DNA from: an uncultured Bacteroidota bacterium
Lineage (GTDB): Bacteria > Bacteroidota > Bacteroidia > Flavobacteriales > BACL11
NCBI GenBank assembly: GCA_902533655.1
Contig: CACAMX010000006.1
Coordinates: forward strand, 1-35,359
Length of the DNA stretch: 35,359 nucleotides
Direction of reading: 5' to 3'
The position numbers were made by a program, and so were the translations under genes. Shown piece after piece: positions 4,830-29,796 of this stretch. The notes beneath the pieces were generated by a model. The model was not told where the DNA came from, did no database searches, and worked only from the letters and a program-made list of their open reading frames with translations. The number at the start of each line of letters is the position of its first letter. Position 1 is the stretch's first letter.

Positions 4830-5737
4830 AGAATAAAAAGCTAATTATCATTTGTGGTCCAACTGGAGTTGGAAAAACAAAGCTTTCAATCAAACTAGCT
4901 AAGTCTTTGAATTGTGAAATAATCTCTGCAGACTCTAGACAATTCTATAAGGAAATGTTAATTGGAACGTGTCCTCCTAATAAAAGTCAATTATTAGAAG
5001 TTAAGCATCATTTTGTTCACAATATATCAATTCAAAATGATTACAGTGCAGGACTTTATCAAAAAGATGTTCTGAAAATTATTAATAAACTTTTTGAAAA
5101 ATACAATTTTATTATTGCTGTTGGTGGGTCTGGTATGTATATTGACGCAATCTGCAATAAGTTGGACGACGTTCCAGCATCTTGCAAAAAAACAAGGTCT
5201 AAAATTATTTCAATATTTGAAAAAAAAGGTATTGAATGGCTTAGAAATGAAATAAAAAAAATCGATCAAAGTATTTATAAAAAAGTTGATTTGAATAATC
5301 ATCAAAGGATGATAAGGGCTTTAGAAGTATATGAAATTTCAGGAAAACCAATTTCATATTTTCACAATGAAAAGAATATAAAAAATGATTATCAAATATT
5401 AAAATTTGGTTTAAGAACTGAAAGGGATGCCCTCTACAGTCAAATTAATAAAAGAGTTGATCTAATGGTTGAACAAGGACTTATTGAGGAAGCCAAAAAA
5501 TTATATGATTACAAATACTTGAATGCTCTTGATACTGTAGGTTATAAAGAATTATTTAATTACATAGAAGGTAGCATTTCAAAGAAAGATGCTATTAATT
5601 TAATCAAAAGAAATTCAAGAAGATATGCTAAAAGACAAATAACTTGGTTTAAAAAATTCAAAGACATTCATTGGATTGAAAAAACTGATGATACAAAAAT
5701 GCTTGAAATTATCTTACAATCGTTACAGTCCCTTTGA
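4826..5737 (+). CDS. miaA: tRNA dimethylallyltransferase
   Basis: MiaA transfers a dimethylallyl group to N6 of A37 in tRNAs reading UNN codons (i6A). The P-loop GPTGVGKT is at 11-18, the catalytic/tRNA-contacting SADSRQFY at 34-41, GTCPP at 47-51, the HHF segment at 61-63, and GGSGMYID at 100-107. The C-terminal part has the family's YAKRQITWFK motif. The 303 residues are close to the usual length (about 310). The start must be TTG at 4826: an in-frame TAA lies three codons upstream and no ATG lies between it and the P-loop. The 3' end overlaps by 29 bases the convergent gene on the other strand. Confidence 0.94.
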   Translation: MKNKKLIIICGPTGVGKTKLSIKLAKSLNCEIISADSRQFYKEMLIGTCPPNKSQLLEVKHHFVHNISIQNDYSAGLYQKDVLKIINKLFEKYNFIIAVGGSGMYIDAICNKLDDVPASCKKTRSKIISIFEKKGIEWLRNEIKKIDQSIYKKVDLNNHQRMIRALEVYEISGKPISYFHNEKNIKNDYQILKFGLRTERDALYSQINKRVDLMVEQGLIEEAKKLYDYKYLNALDTVGYKELFNYIEGSISKKDAINLIKRNSRRYAKRQITWFKKFKDIHWIEKTDDTKMLEIILQSLQSL

Positions 5738-8669
5738 TAGGTTCTGTGTCTTTATCAATTTCTATGTAATAAAAATAACAACCTGCAGAAAGATCAATTC
5801 CATCTTCATTAGTCCCGTCCCATGCTTTATCATATCCGCTTGATTCAAATACTAACTTTCCATATCTGTTGTAAACCTTAATAATCGAATTTGAAAAAAG
5901 ATATGAATCCTCAAGCACCCATGTATCATTAACTTGGTCATTGTTGGGAGAAAAAACATTAGGTATGCACTCGCTTGTCAGTGTTGAAATTTTAAACAAT
6001 GTATCAACAGAACAATTATTATTATCAGTTATGGTTACTCCTTGAATACCAGGCGATAATCCAACACTTATTGGATTAGTTGATGTTCCATCTGACCATG
6101 AAATTTTATATGGTGGAATACCTCCTTCAGCAATTACTTCTAGCTCCAAATCTGTATTTGAAATGTCGCATTCAATCAGAAGATCAGAGGGTGTTAAAGA
6201 TAGTTCAATGTCATCAATTATAAAATCCTGTCTTACAGTACATCCATTAATATCTGTAACCTCAACCCAGTGGTTACCAGGACATAAATCTGCGTGCTGT
6301 TTATTGCTTCCATCATCCCAAAAGTAAGTATATGGAGCATAACCCCATAAACTAAAATCTGGAAAAACTGTGGTTGTGTTCAAATCTACAATTCCATTTG
6401 GTATATAAAAGTCTGCTATTAAAGTGTCCGTAATTTCGCAATTATTTGACAAATCTGTTACTGTGATAAAGTAGATCCCCTCACACAAAGGCCCCGCCTG
6501 ATAGTTAGAACTAATAATATTTGAATTAATATCATACCATGAATAAGTAAAAGGACCTGAGGAATTAGTAAAGTCAATTTCTATGCTTGAGTAATGAGTA
6601 ATGTTATCATAATATAACGATGTTTTTAACTCATATTGATCGAAGTTGAAAAACATTGAATCAGTGCTTTCGCAATAATCACTTACAACAACCCATGCAC
6701 TATTGCTTTGTATGTTGTTTACACTGTTTGAACTAGCTCCATTACTCCAAATATAATTGTAGGGTTTTGTTCCACCAACTAATGAAACACTTGCTTTGGC
6801 TGCTGAATCACAAGTAGCATCTACTGTTACAAATGAATTAATTGAAAAAGGGTCAGGTTCCGTGATTTTAACAGAAGTTAACAAATTACAGCCTTTATTA
6901 TCAGTTATACTACAATAATATGTTCCTGCACCAACGATAGTTTGAAATGATGTATCGTTATTTGACCAATTATAAGAATATGGTGGTGTTCCTCCATAAG
7001 CAATTGCGTCTATTGAAGTTAGCTCACCTCTACACAAAAGTGTGTTATTGTAATTAGCAAATGTTAATACCAATGAATCAGGTTCACTTAGTATTAATTG
7101 TTCTCTAAAAACACACCCAGATGAATCTATAACATGCAGTTCATAAGTTCCGTGCGAGAGCCCATAAAGAGAATCAATATTACCAGTTCCATTAGTCCAA
7201 TTAATTGAATAAGGATAACTACCACCGGAAATATATATGGAAATGCTACCATCACTATATCCAAAACAAGATGGTTGATATAATAGTGCGTTAGATTTAA
7301 TAGGTTGATTTTGTGAAATCTCAATATCGATGTCTATAAAGCAGTTATTTGAATCAAATACAGAAACAGTGTAAAGACCCGCAATTAAATCTGTAAAACT
7401 GTTGTTTGATATACTGAAGTTATATGGAGCAAATCCTCCGAAAATAGAATCAATAGAAATTTCACCAGTGCTATCTCCAAAGCATAATACATCAGTAGTT
7501 GAGTACAAAACATTCAAGTTTGTCAAAGGCTGAAAACTATAACTAAAGGTGTCTTGACAATTATTAATGGTATCAGAAATTGTTAATGTATATGTGTTAG
7601 GAGTACAAAACAAAGAATCATTGTTGTTTGAAATCCAACTAAAATTTAGAGGATTAACAATTCCAGAAATACTATCAATTATTATTAAAACAGTATCATC
7701 AGAGCATATCGCATCTCCTATTTGTGTAATATTAGGATTGTAGGGTCCAGGCTCATTTACTAAAATTGTTGAATCAAAAATACAACCATTTGAATCAGAA
7801 ACAGTTAAGTTATAGCTTCCATTATAAAGATTTATAATATTAATTGTATCGGAACTAAGAAATATAATATTGTTTGATATAGATGAAAAATTTATATGAG
7901 CAATTGAATCGTTATTTTGATCAGTTAACAAAAGGTTGTATCCATGGCTATAAGCTTTTCCTCCAGAGACTTTAAACGTAAAAATGCCGTTATTATTTCC
8001 AATACAATCAACATGTTTAACTTCACCTTTCACATTTATTGGTTGAACAGGTTGAGATATCATAATTTCTGGAGATGTTACTAAGCAGCTGTCCTGATCT
8101 ACAACACTAATATAATATTTAGCTGATGGTAAATTACTAAAGATTGAATCCGTTCCAGAAATTAATATAGAGGATGTCGAATCTAAGAAATAATATGTGT
8201 ATGGCGGATTGCCTGAATGTCCTAAAGCCTTTAAAGAGCCAGTTGAATCACCATGACAACTAACATTTATATGACAACAAAGCTTCAGACCTAGTGGATA
8301 TCTTATGAACCATGTTGTGTCATCAATTATTGTTCCTGAAATATCAAGAATTTCTAATTTAAATGTTCCTCCTATAGTTGTAGAAAGACTATCTGATGAC
8401 AACCCTAGATAGTTTGAATTGTTTAATTTCACTAGTCCACTGGTAACGTATGGTGATGTTTGATTTAATTGATTCCAATTTCCAGTTAATGTGTCTAGAT
8501 AATGCCACTCCGTTATATTTGTTCCACCAGTTGTAAAAATACCACTAAGCGTTGTGTGCACAAAACCATCATAATTGCAATTAACTCCCCTAACAGTATC
8601 GGAAAGAATTTGAGAATGTGATGTAATTTGTGAGATAAAAAATAAAAAGAGGATTAATATCTTTTTCAT
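5709..8669 (-). CDS. Large secreted SprB-repeat protein with T9SS type B sorting domain
   Basis: This is a 986-residue surface or secreted protein. A signal peptide occupies about residues 1-19 (MKKILILFLFFISQITSHS). The body is about ten tandem beta-rich SprB-type repeats of roughly 65-100 residues, typically opening with a cysteine segment such as SCHGDSTG, LCFGDSTG or SCFGYSDG, then GGxxPYxYxW, then GxYxxxVxDxxGC. The last 86 residues (901-986) begin CIPNVFSPNNDQVND and include VYNRYGKLVF, AWDGT and SAGCYFYY. They form the gliding-motility-associated (CHU_C) C-terminal domain recognised by the T9SS. Ligand and role are unknown; adhesin or gliding-related functions are known for relatives. 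The gene lies 37 bases downstream of rnz on the same strand, and its 3' end overlaps miaA. Confidence 0.9.
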   Translation of the reverse strand: MKKILILFLFFISQITSHSQILSDTVRGVNCNYDGFVHTTLSGIFTTGGTNITEWHYLDTLTGNWNQLNQTSPYVTSGLVKLNNSNYLGLSSDSLSTTIGGTFKLEILDISGTIIDDTTWFIRYPLGLKLCCHINVSCHGDSTGSLKALGHSGNPPYTYYFLDSTSSILISGTDSIFSNLPSAKYYISVVDQDSCLVTSPEIMISQPVQPINVKGEVKHVDCIGNNNGIFTFKVSGGKAYSHGYNLLLTDQNNDSIAHINFSSISNNIIFLSSDTINIINLYNGSYNLTVSDSNGCIFDSTILVNEPGPYNPNITQIGDAICSDDTVLIIIDSISGIVNPLNFSWISNNNDSLFCTPNTYTLTISDTINNCQDTFSYSFQPLTNLNVLYSTTDVLCFGDSTGEISIDSIFGGFAPYNFSISNNSFTDLIAGLYTVSVFDSNNCFIDIDIEISQNQPIKSNALLYQPSCFGYSDGSISIYISGGSYPYSINWTNGTGNIDSLYGLSHGTYELHVIDSSGCVFREQLILSEPDSLVLTFANYNNTLLCRGELTSIDAIAYGGTPPYSYNWSNNDTSFQTIVGAGTYYCSITDNKGCNLLTSVKITEPDPFSINSFVTVDATCDSAAKASVSLVGGTKPYNYIWSNGASSNSVNNIQSNSAWVVVSDYCESTDSMFFNFDQYELKTSLYYDNITHYSSIEIDFTNSSGPFTYSWYDINSNIISSNYQAGPLCEGIYFITVTDLSNNCEITDTLIADFYIPNGIVDLNTTTVFPDFSLWGYAPYTYFWDDGSNKQHADLCPGNHWVEVTDINGCTVRQDFIIDDIELSLTPSDLLIECDISNTDLELEVIAEGGIPPYKISWSDGTSTNPISVGLSPGIQGVTITDNNNCSVDTLFKISTLTSECIPNVFSPNNDQVNDTWVLEDSYLFSNSIIKVYNRYGKLVFESSGYDKAWDGTNEDGIDLSAGCYFYYIEIDKDTEPIKGTVTIVR

Positions 8670-22100: not shown

Positions 22101-24095
<1,995 letters not shown>

Positions 24096-24157: not shown

Positions 24158-25753
24158 CTAAAATTTGTACTTGAATCCTAATGACATGTTAAAACCAATT
24201 TGTTTAATATTTCTAAACACTTCGGTCTTAGAGTTCAAAATATTATTCAATTTGATGTTAAAATCAATTTGATTGTTTAATGAATAAAATGAATGAATAT
24301 TGATATTCATAATTTCTTCTAGTTCATACTCACTATTAGCAATGAAAGATTTTTTCGGAGATTGATAATTTACTATTGGACTAACTATTATTTTATTTTT
24401 TAGGTTTATTTCTGAATAGAGATTAGCCTGAACATTAGAAATATTTGAAAGATTTTGAATTGTTCGGTACTGGTATGACAAATCAAAATTCAGTTTTGTA
24501 AAATGATTAATCATATTTGAATATTTTATCGTTGAACTAGATTGCCATAAGTCAGTGTAGTTATACTCAAAAGTAGTGTTTGGGGCGGTTAGAATATTTT
24601 CATAGTTCATAAAATTTTCGTAGTATCCAAAATCCGAGTAAATGTTAATGAACTGACCTTTTGATAGTTTATTAAAAAATTCGAGATATATAAGCTTTGA
24701 TTCTGAATTTTTAATGTGGGTATCATCAATATCTAAAAGTGGGTTAATAAGATAGTTATTAATTAAGTAATTTCTATGATAATCATTTTTAGTTCCAAAA
24801 CTAACTTCTGATATTTTTGGAACTAAAACTTTACTTATTTCAATTATTGGAAAAACATCAAAAATCTTTTCATTTTGAAAATAATCAAATCCAACACCAA
24901 TGTTAGCGTCAAAAGAAAAGATTTCAACATTTACAGATGGAGTAAATGTAATAACTAGCTCATCAGATGATGAGTATTTACCAAACCTATAATCATCTAA
25001 AGTCATATCAAAGTAACTGTCCAGCTGATATATTTTTGTTGAAAGCTGTGATTCAAATTTTAAAATATTCTCATCTGATTCGTAATTATTAATTTCAGAA
25101 AATAATGACTCATATGAAAAACTTGTAATATGACTTATTGATTTGCGGTACAAAAATTTATCTTGGACTTTTACATCAAAAACAGCGTGATTAAAATTAA
25201 ATTCTGATTTTTCGTTATAAGCACTAGTTATTGATTCATCAGTGGTATTCATATTACTGAAAAAATGAAAATTAACAGTTATGTCATTTTTCTTAATCTC
25301 AGAATTTGCGAAAGCGTTAAAGAAAAAATTATTTTTTTTAATATTTGTGTCATCAATAATTTTGTATCTAGTTCTGTTATTTGATGATGCAATTCCAAAG
25401 AACAGTTTTTCTCTTATTTTTTTTGAAAAATTAAGCTTAGCATCAGAAAAAAATTTATTTCCTAATGAAAGTTCAATTTTATTAAAATTATTATACGAAA
25501 ACTTCTGGTTTTTTACTAGTGCTGGCTTGAGTGGTCTTATAATAGGCTTAGTTTTAATTTGCATGCTTATGAAGTCATAGTCAAAGGTATTTTTGATTTT
25601 GATTGTATCCACATAAACAGCCTGATCATCTAATCTATTAGCATCAGTTACGCTAGGGTTATATTTCTTACTAACATTAATTTTAGTGTCTTTCAGATTT
25701 TGACCAAAAACTATATTGGAGAGAAGCAAAAAAATTAAAGTGTTTCTAATCAT
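24158..25753 (-). CDS. Predicted outer-membrane beta-barrel protein (TonB-receptor-like)
   Basis: This 531-residue protein starts with a signal peptide (about 1-17, ending FGQ). Residues about 25-80 form a polar segment with proline-rich motifs (KYNPSVTDANRLDD, then TKPIIRPLKPALV). The rest is a long series of alternating amphipathic strands with frequent aromatic residues, ending in the outer-membrane type signature SLGFKYKF with a terminal phenylalanine. No plug domain or TonB box is clear, so the TonB-receptor resemblance is limited to the barrel. It begins 11 bases after the 1002-residue TPR gene. From memory, Flavobacteriia often carry this pair; the job of the pair is not known to me. 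Confidence 0.75.
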   Translation of the reverse strand: MIRNTLIFLLLSNIVFGQNLKDTKINVSKKYNPSVTDANRLDDQAVYVDTIKIKNTFDYDFISMQIKTKPIIRPLKPALVKNQKFSYNNFNKIELSLGNKFFSDAKLNFSKKIREKLFFGIASSNNRTRYKIIDDTNIKKNNFFFNAFANSEIKKNDITVNFHFFSNMNTTDESITSAYNEKSEFNFNHAVFDVKVQDKFLYRKSISHITSFSYESLFSEINNYESDENILKFESQLSTKIYQLDSYFDMTLDDYRFGKYSSSDELVITFTPSVNVEIFSFDANIGVGFDYFQNEKIFDVFPIIEISKVLVPKISEVSFGTKNDYHRNYLINNYLINPLLDIDDTHIKNSESKLIYLEFFNKLSKGQFINIYSDFGYYENFMNYENILTAPNTTFEYNYTDLWQSSSTIKYSNMINHFTKLNFDLSYQYRTIQNLSNISNVQANLYSEINLKNKIIVSPIVNYQSPKKSFIANSEYELEEIMNINIHSFYSLNNQIDFNIKLNNILNSKTEVFRNIKQIGFNMSLGFKYKF

Positions 25754-25764
25754 TAATTTTATTA

Positions 25765-28700
25765 TTATTCAATTTCAAATAATTTATCATAATCATAGCT
25801 TTCAATATCTAACAAGAACCTATACTCTGAACTATTTTCAGTTTTTGTTTTCAGTTCAATTTCGTTACTAATCACGTCCTCCAGTTTTTTACTTGCTAAA
25901 ATATAAATATCGCTATTTGGTTCAAAATTGTTCAATATACTTTCAAGAGTTGCTTTTGATTGAAAAACGTTTCCTTGATTAACTAAAATATCTGAAAGTA
26001 ATATGAATGATTTAGCGATGTAATAATCATCAAGATAATTTTCGCTAAAGTCATAAATCATACTTTCACATTTCTGAAAATTTTCATCTAAAAATTCATA
26101 GAAAATGAGCATATATTTTGCCTCAGATGCCTCAGTTTTGTTTAATAATGAATCAGCATTAGTATAAAATATACGAGCTTTGTTATAATTTGAATTGCTA
26201 TTACTGTATCTTGCAATCATCATACTTGCTTTTCCTTTGACCCAAGTATCTGTTTTTTTTATTTTTAAAACCTCTTCTGCATATTTCATAGATTTTAAAT
26301 TTATTGAGTCTTTATATATCAACATTAGCCTAATTTTAGATTCTCTTTCAGTTGAATTGTCATTGGCTATATTGGCTAGTTCAATGTAAAACTTTTCTGA
26401 TCTCTTGTATTGTTTTTTTGAATAATAATTTCTGGCAAGAAATTTACAAGACTCTTCTAAATAAGCTTCATTTCTTTTGTCGAAAATTCTTAAAAAATAT
26501 TTTTCTGCACTTAACGTGTCATTCGTTGATAGAAAACATTGACTGAGGTTGAAAATAACATCATCAACAAAGAAACCGTTTTCATTGATCTTTAAATAAC
26601 TTTTAAATGCTGATATTGCAGATTGATAATCTCTATCATTATATTTAATCATAGCAGCACTGTATGATAAAGAATCTTGCTCACTTTTGCTGATAACAAT
26701 ACTCGAGATAGTACTTATGTATTTTAGATAATTATCAATATTTCCTGTCAAAAGATATGAAGATTTAAGTGCACTAATTGAGTTTAAAAGACTACTAGTT
26801 TGGTCATAATTTTCTATAACTAATTTAAACGTTTGCATGGCTTTATCAATCATACCTTCATTAAACTCAATATTTCCTTTGAGAAGTATTGACTTGGCTA
26901 CTATTTCATTATTAGCTTGACTTTCAATAATTTTTTGAAGGGTTTCTTTTGCTTTATCAGAACTTTGATTTTGATAATCTAATTTAGCATCATCAAACAG
27001 ACTTTGGAAGTAATATCTAGAATTAGGAAAATTTTGTATGATTTGTTGAAGTGATTCTCTTTGCTTTTCAAAATCACTTAGAAGAGAAAAGCAAAGAGAG
27101 TTTTGATATAATGCATAATCTACGTCAAAGTCACTTGTTGATGAAAAATTAGAATAGTACGAAGATGCTAGGCTATATTTTTTTTGCATGAACATTGCAT
27201 CGGCAAGTCTTAATGTTGCATCAACTTTTCTTTTTTCATCTCTTGATTTAGTAATAAAGAGTTTAAATTCTTTTTCTGAGTTTACGAAGTCTCTTAGTTT
27301 AGTGTAATTATAGCCTAGATTATAGTATGTTTTTTCATGAAATTCTTCAAACCCCGTAAAGCTGAGCATTTTTATTTCATTAAAATGATAAATACTTTGT
27401 TTAAAATTATTAATCTGATAATAGCTATCAGCCAGCCAATATTTTGAAAGATAACTTATGATAATATCTTCCGAACTTTTCGATTCTTCTAAAAAAACTA
27501 TTGCTTTTTTAAAATCCTTTGTATTATATGATTGAATTGCTAATTGGAGTGCAGATTTATAAAATTGTTTTCTCTCATAATCACTTAAATTATTCTTGGC
27601 TAATAAATTTTCATAAATTTTTTTATAATTCTTTGAATTAAAATAAAATTTCAAAGTTAAATCTTCAATTTCTTTATAATAAATTGAGTTAGGAAATTTT
27701 TGAAGAAAATCTGAAAGAATTTTTAATACATCATCATTTTTTGAATTTACTTCAAATGCTAGCTTAGTTAAGTTGTAATATGATTCCTCATATATTTTTT
27801 TATCAACATCACTTTTGACACATTGTCTAAATGCATTTAGCGCATATTTTTTTTTGTCTACTTTGATATAGGACTGTGCTAAAAAATAATTTGATTTTTG
27901 TGATATTGTATCATTAGCAACAATGATTTTTTCCAAATATTTAATCGCATTCATGTAATCTGACAGTTCAAAATACAAGTGGCCAACTTGTAACAGTTCT
28001 AGACTATTATTGATATCTTCATACTCCATATATTTTTGATAATAAACTGCTGAATTTTGATAATCTTTAAGTTGATAATATGATTCTGCCATTATTCTAT
28101 AAACCTCTGATTTTCTTGTTGGGATAATATCATTCAAATTGATTGAAATGTAGTCTAGTAGTCTTTCAAATTTTTCTTGTTTAAATAGAATTTGAACAAT
28201 ATAATATGGAGATATTGCTGAGAATTTTTCTTCACTGGCTAAGGACTCAAATCCATTTAGTGCTGATTCATAAAGAGATTTTTTATATTGAATATGTGAA
28301 AAATAGTAAGTTGAGCTAGGCTTGTAAACAGATTTTTCACTCATTAATTTTTTAAATATTAATGATGACTTATCATATTCTTGCAGAACAAAAAAAGCGT
28401 ATGCCAGCTGAAATCTTTCTTTTTGGGTGAGTTCTCTTGAAATTTTTAAATAATTATCAATACAACTGGAGTGCTCTAAACTATTGTATTGAATATTTGC
28501 TAAGGAAGAGTGAATATCATCAATAAAAATTGAATTTTTAAAATTTTCAATGAAATAAATTTTTAAATCCCTTGACTTTTCTAATGAAATATTTTCATAA
28601 CATTTAGATAAATAAAATAATTGTTTATCACTCTCCTCTAAATGTTCTAAAATATTTATTGCTTGGATGTAGTTTTGGCTTTGATAAAGCTCCATTGCAA

Positions 28701-28773
28701 TTTGCAATTGTTGGCTTTTTGAGGAAAAATTCAACAAAAGGAACAGAACTAAAAGTAAGTAAGCTTTTTTCAA
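25765..28773 (-). CDS. Large periplasmic TPR-repeat protein
   Basis: This 1002-residue protein starts with a signal peptide (about 1-20, MKKAYLLLVLFLLLNFSSKS), so it should be in the periplasm or attached to the outer membrane. Nearly the entire chain is tandem TPR/SEL-like helical hairpins, visible as recurring A-x-x-x-Y/F and YYxxA patterns such as YQNSAVYYQKYMEY, YALNAFRQCV and ASSYYSNF. There are no enzymatic motifs. The start is TTG at 28773: an in-frame TAA lies two codons upstream and the TTG opens exactly onto the signal peptide. The downstream barrel gene follows after 11 bases. A scaffold for envelope assembly or a partner of the barrel protein is likely but not shown. Confidence 0.85.
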   Translation of the reverse strand: MKKAYLLLVLFLLLNFSSKSQQLQIAMELYQSQNYIQAINILEHLEESDKQLFYLSKCYENISLEKSRDLKIYFIENFKNSIFIDDIHSSLANIQYNSLEHSSCIDNYLKISRELTQKERFQLAYAFFVLQEYDKSSLIFKKLMSEKSVYKPSSTYYFSHIQYKKSLYESALNGFESLASEEKFSAISPYYIVQILFKQEKFERLLDYISINLNDIIPTRKSEVYRIMAESYYQLKDYQNSAVYYQKYMEYEDINNSLELLQVGHLYFELSDYMNAIKYLEKIIVANDTISQKSNYFLAQSYIKVDKKKYALNAFRQCVKSDVDKKIYEESYYNLTKLAFEVNSKNDDVLKILSDFLQKFPNSIYYKEIEDLTLKFYFNSKNYKKIYENLLAKNNLSDYERKQFYKSALQLAIQSYNTKDFKKAIVFLEESKSSEDIIISYLSKYWLADSYYQINNFKQSIYHFNEIKMLSFTGFEEFHEKTYYNLGYNYTKLRDFVNSEKEFKLFITKSRDEKRKVDATLRLADAMFMQKKYSLASSYYSNFSSTSDFDVDYALYQNSLCFSLLSDFEKQRESLQQIIQNFPNSRYYFQSLFDDAKLDYQNQSSDKAKETLQKIIESQANNEIVAKSILLKGNIEFNEGMIDKAMQTFKLVIENYDQTSSLLNSISALKSSYLLTGNIDNYLKYISTISSIVISKSEQDSLSYSAAMIKYNDRDYQSAISAFKSYLKINENGFFVDDVIFNLSQCFLSTNDTLSAEKYFLRIFDKRNEAYLEESCKFLARNYYSKKQYKRSEKFYIELANIANDNSTERESKIRLMLIYKDSINLKSMKYAEEVLKIKKTDTWVKGKASMMIARYSNSNSNYNKARIFYTNADSLLNKTEASEAKYMLIFYEFLDENFQKCESMIYDFSENYLDDYYIAKSFILLSDILVNQGNVFQSKATLESILNNFEPNSDIYILASKKLEDVISNEIELKTKTENSSEYRFLLDIESYDYDKLFEIE

Positions 28774-29112: not shown

Positions 29113-29796
29113 ATGAGTGAAAATATTATTGAAATTAAAGGGGCTTCAATTTCAATTAATGAGATTAAAGTTTTAGAGAATTTTAACTTTGAAATGAAAA
29201 AAGGAGAATTTGTTTACATCATAGGTGAAACTGGAAGTGGAAAAAGTACTTTTTTAAGATGTTTATACTGTTCACAAAAATTTTTAGAGGGAACAGCAAA
29301 AGTGGATAATTTCAATTTGAATAATATCAACAAACCAAAAATTCAGGAACTTCGAAGAAATTTAGGTATAATTTTTCAAGACTTTAAACTTCTTGAAGAC
29401 AGAAATATACATGAAAATTTAAAATTTATATTAAAATCAATTGGTTGGAAAAATAATAATGAAATAGATGAAAGGATAAGAGACACCTTAATGAAAGTAG
29501 GTTTGGAAGAAAAAGCAAAAAAAATACCTTATGAACTGTCTGGAGGGGAACAACAAAGAGCTAGCATTGCTAGAGCAATTGTAAACAATCCGAGCTTGAT
29601 AATAGCGGATGAACCAACAGGTAATTTAGATCCAAAAAAATCAATTGAAATTGTAAACTTGCTTAAGAAAATTAATATTAACGGCTCTTCTGTAATTATA
29701 GCTACTCATGACTATGACATTATAAAATCTCAATCGGGAACAATATATGAATGCTGCAACAAAAAATTGAAGAAAATAGAAAATTTGAGTCAATGA
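29113..29796 (+). CDS. ftsE: Cell division ATP-binding protein FtsE
   Basis: FtsE is the cytoplasmic ATPase that with the membrane protein FtsX controls peptidoglycan hydrolases during cell division. The 227 residues are a single ABC domain: Walker A GETGSGKST (38-46), the Q-loop FQD (88-90) followed by FKLLEDRNIHEN, the ABC signature LSGGEQQR (142-149), Walker B LIIADEPTGNLDP (162-174) and the switch histidine in IATHD (H200). The FQDFKLL segment and short length separate FtsE from LolD/MacB-type ABC proteins, which are the main alternatives. No ftsX lies next to it; murB follows with a four-base overlap. Confidence 0.88.
   Translation: MSENIIEIKGASISINEIKVLENFNFEMKKGEFVYIIGETGSGKSTFLRCLYCSQKFLEGTAKVDNFNLNNINKPKIQELRRNLGIIFQDFKLLEDRNIHENLKFILKSIGWKNNNEIDERIRDTLMKVGLEEKAKKIPYELSGGEQQRASIARAIVNNPSLIIADEPTGNLDPKKSIEIVNLLKKININGSSVIIATHDYDIIKSQSGTIYECCNKKLKKIENLSQ

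Follow-up and report, generated by a model that had tools for sequence, protein, structure and literature searches.

A giant TPR protein and an outer-membrane barrel of Bacteroidota as candidate parts of a Tol/Ton-type machine

The described envelope systems closest to the locus analyzed here are the Tol-Pal system, composed of TolQ, TolR, TolA, TolB, Pal and CpoB (for the connection of CpoB with TolA and PBP1B see the accessible part of PMC7391070), and the Ton system with its TonB-dependent transporters. According to Williams-Jones et al. (2025; PMC12204202, cited here and below from the accessible portion of its text), Bacteroidetes have no identifiable tol-pal loci; these authors propose PorE, a CpoB-TolB-CPE-Pal fusion lipoprotein, as the tether between outer membrane and peptidoglycan, and expect further similar systems to be revealed. 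By contrast, the available part of another study reports an almost complete Tol-Pal system in Bacteroidetes on the basis of hidden Markov models (PMC8871954); our guess is that its ybgF profile may also have matched proteins such as the giant tetratricopeptide repeat (TPR) protein considered here. This protein, of 1002 residues, is encoded next to a presumed outer-membrane barrel protein of 531 residues in an uncultured member of the Bacteroidota (Flavobacteriales, BACL11; assembly GCA_902533655.1, contig CACAMX010000006.1, positions 1 to 35,359), this whole stretch of 35,359 nucleotides being hereafter called the window. Sequence comparisons across the phylum suggest that the pair very probably belongs to a machine of the Tol/Ton type.

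The proposed machine resembles Tol-Pal in having a motor of the TolQ/ExbB-TolR/ExbD type, a TonB_C- or TolA-like transducer and a CpoB/YbgF-like TPR protein encoded in one gene cluster, together with division-related company in the form of SPOR, FtsE and FtsK; it differs from it in that neither TolB nor Pal is recognized in the operon, its outer-membrane end is an integral barrel, and its TPR protein has about 1000 residues instead of about 260. With the Ton system it shares a TonB_C transducer and a motor, related C-terminal strands of the barrel and a TonB-box-like motif in half of the members examined from outside the class Bacteroidia, whereas no plug has been detected, the barrel is limited to 530-600 residues and the giant TPR protein is a constant partner. 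PorE would answer the same question of a missing Tol-Pal system but is a different protein (PMC12204202). The force transducers with a vWA domain, for which a TPR gene also adjoins tolQ/tolR-like motor genes, are described for the PVC group, while the operon presented here combines a TonB_C transducer with a barrel (PMC12204202).

The gene pair and its conservation

As described in the initial annotation, the two open reading frames (ORFs) lie 11 bases apart (25754-25764) on the minus strand, the TPR gene upstream; the ORF list of the window gives a TTG start for the TPR gene and an ATG start for the barrel gene. The signal peptides attributed to both proteins also find agreement in our inspection by eye, for each begins with a signal-peptide-like hydrophobic stretch, the two ending in ...SKSQ and ...VFGQ. 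The features of the pair are the following.

25765..28773, minus strand: giant periplasmic TPR protein, 1002 residues, with YbgF/CpoB-like repeats (ORF, Pfam TPR, NCBIfam tol_pal_ybgF)
28711..28773, minus strand: N-terminus of the TPR protein, signal-peptide-like (recognized by eye in the translation)
26791..27081, minus strand: residues 565-661 of the TPR protein, best YbgF/CpoB match (best stretch for TIGR02795)
24158..25753, minus strand: outer-membrane barrel protein, 531 residues, distantly resembling the C-terminal portion of TonB-dependent transporters, no plug domain detected (ORF; profile A6 against PDB)
25703..25753, minus strand: signal-peptide-like N-terminus of the barrel protein (by eye)
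25514..25699, minus strand: residues 19-80, a conserved segment with prolines at the N-terminus of the mature barrel (alignments A1 and A2)

The pairing of these genes is not due to chance, since it recurs far beyond the window's own genome (G000, 55% complete). In the following, order indicates the order of the window, class indicates Bacteroidia (class regions being those of its other families) and outside-class the phylum beyond this class. A single rule was applied to all 90 regions, namely that the TPR gene lies directly upstream of the barrel gene on the same strand. This is the case in 73 of them: 20/20 order regions, 42/50 class regions and 11/20 outside-class regions, the latter two counts not representing random samples because regions were drawn, few per family, from the better-scoring listed matches. 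Among the 17 regions without an adjacent TPR gene, three (L116, L132, L133) are less than 2.5 kb away from the end of their contig and one (L249) has a single ORF between the two genes. The other 13 genomes carry the TPR gene elsewhere, near full length in 12 of them: in G474, G351, G429 and G361 it is matched at 1e-147 or better, in G636, G697, G709, G660, G778, G671, G633 and G769 the match covers almost the entire gene at about 1e-135 or better, and in G389 it is only partial (7e-19). The two families thus co-occur, a point which the initial annotation had left to a neighbourhood survey.

Within the family of the window, a single barrel sequence used as query found matches in 33/37 genomes counting itself (36/60 relatives overall); three of the resulting loci (L001-L033) are on contigs that were included twice, which leaves 30 distinct genomes, and 29/30 of these have the TPR gene immediately upstream, the locus of the remaining one beginning at the end of a contig. 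Profile A1 of the barrel matched 182/296 order genomes, but was too narrow, missing G041, G075 and G107, which do have the pair. The broader profile A2 matched 287/296 Bacteroidia genomes (at least 95% complete, plus the less complete genome of the window), and the broadest, A6, matched 257/296 phylum genomes with weaker scores outside the class. Judged by these profiles, the predicted barrel, which has no Pfam family model, is one of those outer-membrane proteins that are conserved widely across the phylum. The weak A6 matches in one Bacteroidota family, f91, are probably not orthologues, because the giant TPR gene is lacking in all nine genomes of this family tested.

Neither gene was found with both profiles in G013, G010, G046, G051, G533 and the single-contig G458, nor in G063 (in which the barrel was searched with A1), while G385 is the sole genome having the TPR gene with no barrel found. 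Absence in G345, G362, G352 and G386 may reflect gaps in assemblies of 70-460 contigs. G472 and its relatives seemed to have no barrel, but L192 (G543) contains a diverged one beside the TPR gene; in the genus of L192-L194 the TPR orthologue is matched in its C-terminal two thirds only, and the adjoining barrel is strongly diverged. Genus g192, in which HU-CCDC81 is kept, is of another kind: by two profiles G458 has neither gene, G478 has no TPR gene and only a weak, unlocated barrel match (7e-6), and three genomes from sister genera of G458 have both genes. This genus can be considered a natural knock-out of an otherwise near-universal pair.

Gene company and domain content

Clustering of neighbouring genes revealed a shared order, namely TPR protein, barrel, a protein with HU-CCDC81/SPOR domains, ExbB, ExbD, a TonB-like protein and folC, which is kept in six to eight distant families of Bacteroidia. 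The TPR, ExbB, ExbD and TonB-like genes all accompany the barrel in L107, L114, L115 and L120; in L102 and L109 only the TPR gene is missing from the operon at that place, and in L117 ExbB and ExbD are missing. Outside the class, ExbB and ExbD follow the barrel in 15/20 regions, usually after the SPOR/HU protein, and a TonB/TolA-like gene accompanies it in 18/20; the corresponding figures for class regions are 6/50 and 8/50. Pfam searches with operon neighbours recognized MotA_ExbB (1.3e-28), ExbD (2.5e-23) and HU-CCDC81 (4e-20), as well as SPOR in all four outside-class partner proteins tested (up to 7.4e-15). TonB_C scored above its cut-off in all four outside-class proteins tested (2.3e-9 to 8.6e-6), and was below it or absent in the four class TonB-like proteins tested. 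The motor proteins tested score higher with TolQ than with ExbB models (97.1 vs 64.2 bits and 58.8 vs 39.2 bits), and higher with TolR than with ExbD models (51.8 vs 42.0 bits).

A gene for FtsK is part of the same gene string in six outside-class regions (one tested, 1.6e-59), and some outside-class strings also include a LolA-like gene, of which the one member tested gave a sub-threshold match. In L238, L239, L243, L244, L245 and L255 the run of barrel, HU/SPOR, ExbB, ExbD and TonB genes is preceded in constant order by a gene which we take to be gcvT, a family of 240 residues, ftsK, the LolA-like gene and a membrane protein.

In the order of the window the HU-CCDC81 gene lies elsewhere, in some genomes near TatD, asparaginase and ExbB (L170, L174, L176; TatD and asparaginase recognized by eye), and in L107 TatD and asparaginase stand directly behind the folC gene of the complete operon. 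From these two arrangements it looks as if a single ancestral cluster has been broken in two. The HU-CCDC81 gene also adjoins a thioesterase-like ORF in several order regions (e.g., L165, L172-L176, L178-L180; by eye), the sole one tested (L178) reaching 60 bits with the YciA model against a cut-off of 162; classical tol-pal operons also begin with a thioesterase gene, ybgC.

The TPR protein of the window consists of repeats throughout (TPR_6, 9.3e-15; TPR_2, 8.3e-14; TPR_19, 3.7e-11 in Pfam). Its nearest named model is tol_pal_ybgF of NCBIfam (TIGR02795), with 88.7 bits against a cut-off of 90.1; the orthologue of L248 reaches 432 bits, and all 29 family members tested match this model (E<=0.001). 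Positions 593-702 of the family profile match YbgF (2xev, 6.5e-18) and CpoB (6g5s, 7.6e-20) in PDB, the latter being the best match among natural solved proteins. AlphaFold returned an all-helical model of low confidence (predicted local distance difference test, pLDDT, 51).

Used as a single sequence, the 531-residue protein has no match in Pfam, NCBIfam or PDB. Its nature as a barrel is deduced from the family alignment, in which most members end in an aromatic residue, and from profile A6, whose best PDB matches fall on the C-terminal strands of TonB-dependent transporters (PhuR at 3.6e-5, all others at 0.0055 or weaker). Fifty-four members compared with Pfam gave sporadic weak matches only, the TonB-dependent-receptor family PF00593 appearing in one of them at 0.038, and no plug family was among their matches at E<=0.1. 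AlphaFold with three near-identical sequences yielded no usable model of it (pLDDT 27). The initial annotation had pointed to a conserved proline-rich N-terminal segment, and a proline-containing stretch of this kind is recovered in both alignments, with Q18, D49, Y59 and A78 invariant in A1 and Q18, D49 and Y59 nearly invariant in A2.

Near the start of 10/20 outside-class barrels this region contains a motif of the form LPEFVITG, by a pattern written from the sequences themselves, in the position where a TonB box would be; the motif is present in the first 140 residues of none of 254 other ORFs, and no barrel has it further on. Residues 22-27 of the window barrel (DTKINV) lie roughly at the same place, and what the barrel of the window and the Bacteroidia relatives of this barrel have there corresponds only loosely to the motif, e.g., TETVNVV or TTEVNVV.

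The pair is flanked in the window by two genes, the names of which are our own assignments.

29113..29796, plus strand: divergent neighbour, which we take to be an FtsE-type ABC ATPase (blastp similarity between regions)
22101..24056, minus strand: downstream neighbour, presumably gyrB (from its sequence)

The FtsE-like gene is the divergent neighbour in 16/20 order regions by blastp between regions; gyrB directly follows the barrel in 27/30 distinct same-family loci and is not proposed to be part of the machine. Scans for terminators, promoters and inverted repeats around the pair gave nothing usable. Elsewhere in the window (5709-8669, minus strand) a protein of 986 residues combines SprB repeats with a C-terminal sorting domain of type B of the type IX secretion system (T9SS; Pfam, NCBIfam) and is likely to be a type IX secreted adhesin.

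Proposed machine and competing explanations

Sequence comparison supports a Tol/Ton-type machine well and poses its function as a clear hypothesis. From the conservation, pairing, operon order and domain identities presented above we infer the following as to how the proteins contact one another, how the TonB-box-like segment is used, where the machine is located and what it does. Proton flow through the TolQ/ExbB-TolR/ExbD motor of the inner membrane would move a rod-like transducer bearing TonB_C, which would cross the periplasm, grip the TonB-box-like N-terminal segment of the barrel (probably) and/or the TPR protein, and pull on the outer membrane. The giant TPR protein may be an enlarged CpoB-like scaffold that bridges barrel, transducer and peptidoglycan synthases and coordinates the machine with cell-wall synthesis, while the SPOR partner, which in many cases begins with an HU-like domain, would tie it to septal peptidoglycan. 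Its likely job would be to couple invagination of the outer membrane and remodelling of peptidoglycan at division, which is the role of Tol-Pal elsewhere.

A role in division or outer-membrane integrity is favoured because of the CpoB-like scaffold, the SPOR domain, the FtsE and FtsK neighbours and the pattern of family f91, in which the giant TPR protein is lacking and a Pal-YbgF locus is present (in the two loci tested of the six read, 147.8 and 139.7 bits with Pal_lipo, 118.9 and 99.6 bits with ybgF); we hold this assignment tentatively, as slightly short of an even chance. The explanation as a whole, that most Bacteroidota share a proton-driven machine of the Tol/Ton type, probably coupled to division, whose end in the periplasm and outer membrane is formed by the pair, seems to us evenly poised between right and wrong. 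A further proposal, that a phylum-wide, proton-driven set of giant CpoB-like TPR protein, plug-less TonB-box barrel, SPOR/HU protein, TolQ, TolR and TonB/TolA replaces TolB-Pal in Bacteroidota, is possible but somewhat doubtful; force would then act directly on an integral outer-membrane barrel rather than on a lipoprotein-releasing propeller.

Several observations weigh against such a machine or parts of it. No motor gene lies beside the pair in any of the 20 order regions, the window's genome included; the link with the motor comes from other families. No Pal- or TolB-like part was recognized among the neighbours of the pair in those arrangements that were read, in which only selected neighbours were run against family libraries. 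All scores with TolQ and TolR are far under the equivalog cut-offs (221 and 127.3). Engineered TPR proteins outscore CpoB, and hence the likeness to CpoB may partly be generic similarity among TPR proteins. The strict TonB-box-like motif is missing from half of the outside-class barrels (10/20) and from that of the window, and its pattern was drawn up after the sequences had been seen. G458, which consists of one contig and is 99% complete, has lost the pair and presumably divides all the same, from which it follows that the machine is not indispensable. Finally, [ST]xxxH, the motor-contact motif of TonB and TolA, occurs in the first 60 residues of only 11/26 TonB-like proteins, and six TonB-like genes (L117, L129, L246, L249, L250, L251) have no adjoining ExbB and ExbD. 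The proteins of these six regions are also without [ST]xxxH in their first 60 residues; their transducer may be uncoupled or work on a different motor. A SHLS motif with a motor-binding His has been described (PMC12204202).

The relationship of the barrel to TonB-dependent transporters, the TonB_C protein and motor in the operon and the TonB-box-like motif would also suit a plug-less transporter for one essential nutrient with no role in division. We consider this unlikely, given that the plug, a defining part of such transporters, was not found in the 54 members, that the giant TPR protein and the SPOR partner have no place there, and that the distribution is housekeeping-like. A split exporter akin to Slam, in which lipoproteins would be taken up by the TPR protein and then brought to the cell surface through the barrel, appears slightly less probable. 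It has in its favour the combination of a TPR part with an outer-membrane barrel, as in Slam, the near-universality of the pair in a phylum rich in surface lipoproteins, the LolA-like gene in some outside-class strings, and the limited understanding of how surface lipoproteins are flipped (PMC12578637, accessible part). However, there are here two separate proteins with no sequence match to Slam, and DUF560, which we take to be the Slam barrel family, is not among the Pfam matches of the 54 barrel members. The motor/SPOR operon is left unexplained as well. Moreover, G458 has 32 SusD-type matches but neither gene of the pair, which its three sister-genus relatives possess, and G385, G351 and G361 keep the TPR gene without any SusD match. 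A general exporter of surface lipoproteins is unlikely on the evidence of G458.

Energized transport of a polymer or glycan, by a TPR and barrel unit of the AlgK-AlgE, PgaA or BcsC kind, is more doubtful again. The TPR-porin architecture of these families and single weak matches of the barrel family to Alginate_exp (0.046) and LptD (0.022) speak for it, but no gene for glycan synthesis or modification is a conserved partner in the neighbour clusters or arrangements; a family which we take to be glycosyltransferase-like occurs in 20/70 regions with no constant place in the arrangements read, and near-universality is ill-suited to an optional polymer. The least probable alternative in our judgement is an accessory of outer-membrane protein insertion by the β-barrel assembly machinery (BAM), or of type IX secretion and gliding. 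BamD and PorW/SprE are TPR proteins, and their models (YfiO/BamD and PorW/SprE) find a match in each of the 29 TPR family members tested; yet the window protein scores far under their cut-offs (25 of 81 and 26 of 250 bits), that of PorW/SprE (NF052312, 250) also not being reached by L248 (191.7), and no T9SS or BAM genes were recognized as neighbours in the arrangements read. In its accessible text, a paper on BAM of Flavobacterium johnsoniae, which also describes a system for depleting genes in this species, names BamA, D, G, H, M and P, of which BamG resembles FadL, with no occurrence of the word tetratricopeptide (PMC12611786); membership in BAM was rejected on this paper and on PMC12578637, as far as their accessible parts go.

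Significance for Bacteroidota

The initial annotation had compared the pair with scaffold-plus-pore systems. This comparison holds only in part; nothing found indicates a passive pore, and the gene company points to a motor-driven machine of the Tol/Ton type. It had also known of no assigned role and seen here an envelope system that is not well described. In the literature searched (without preprints and with few subscription papers) we likewise found neither a role assigned to the pair nor an account of the operon, and no characterized homologue with a separate role turned up; the available portions of PMC12204202 and PMC12045153 do not describe the TPR-barrel operon and the TPR-barrel pair, respectively.

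Bacteroidota must keep their outer membrane attached and constrict it at division although no tol-pal locus can be identified in them, and how they do so is an open question (PMC12204202, in its accessible text). A concrete and nearly universal set of candidate genes can now be named, including a barrel that has carried no family annotation, and the question becomes directly testable in the standard laboratory strains F. johnsoniae and Bacteroides thetaiotaomicron. If the proposed Tol/Ton-type machine is true, a barrel of the Ton-type transporter kind can serve as a mechanical anchor.

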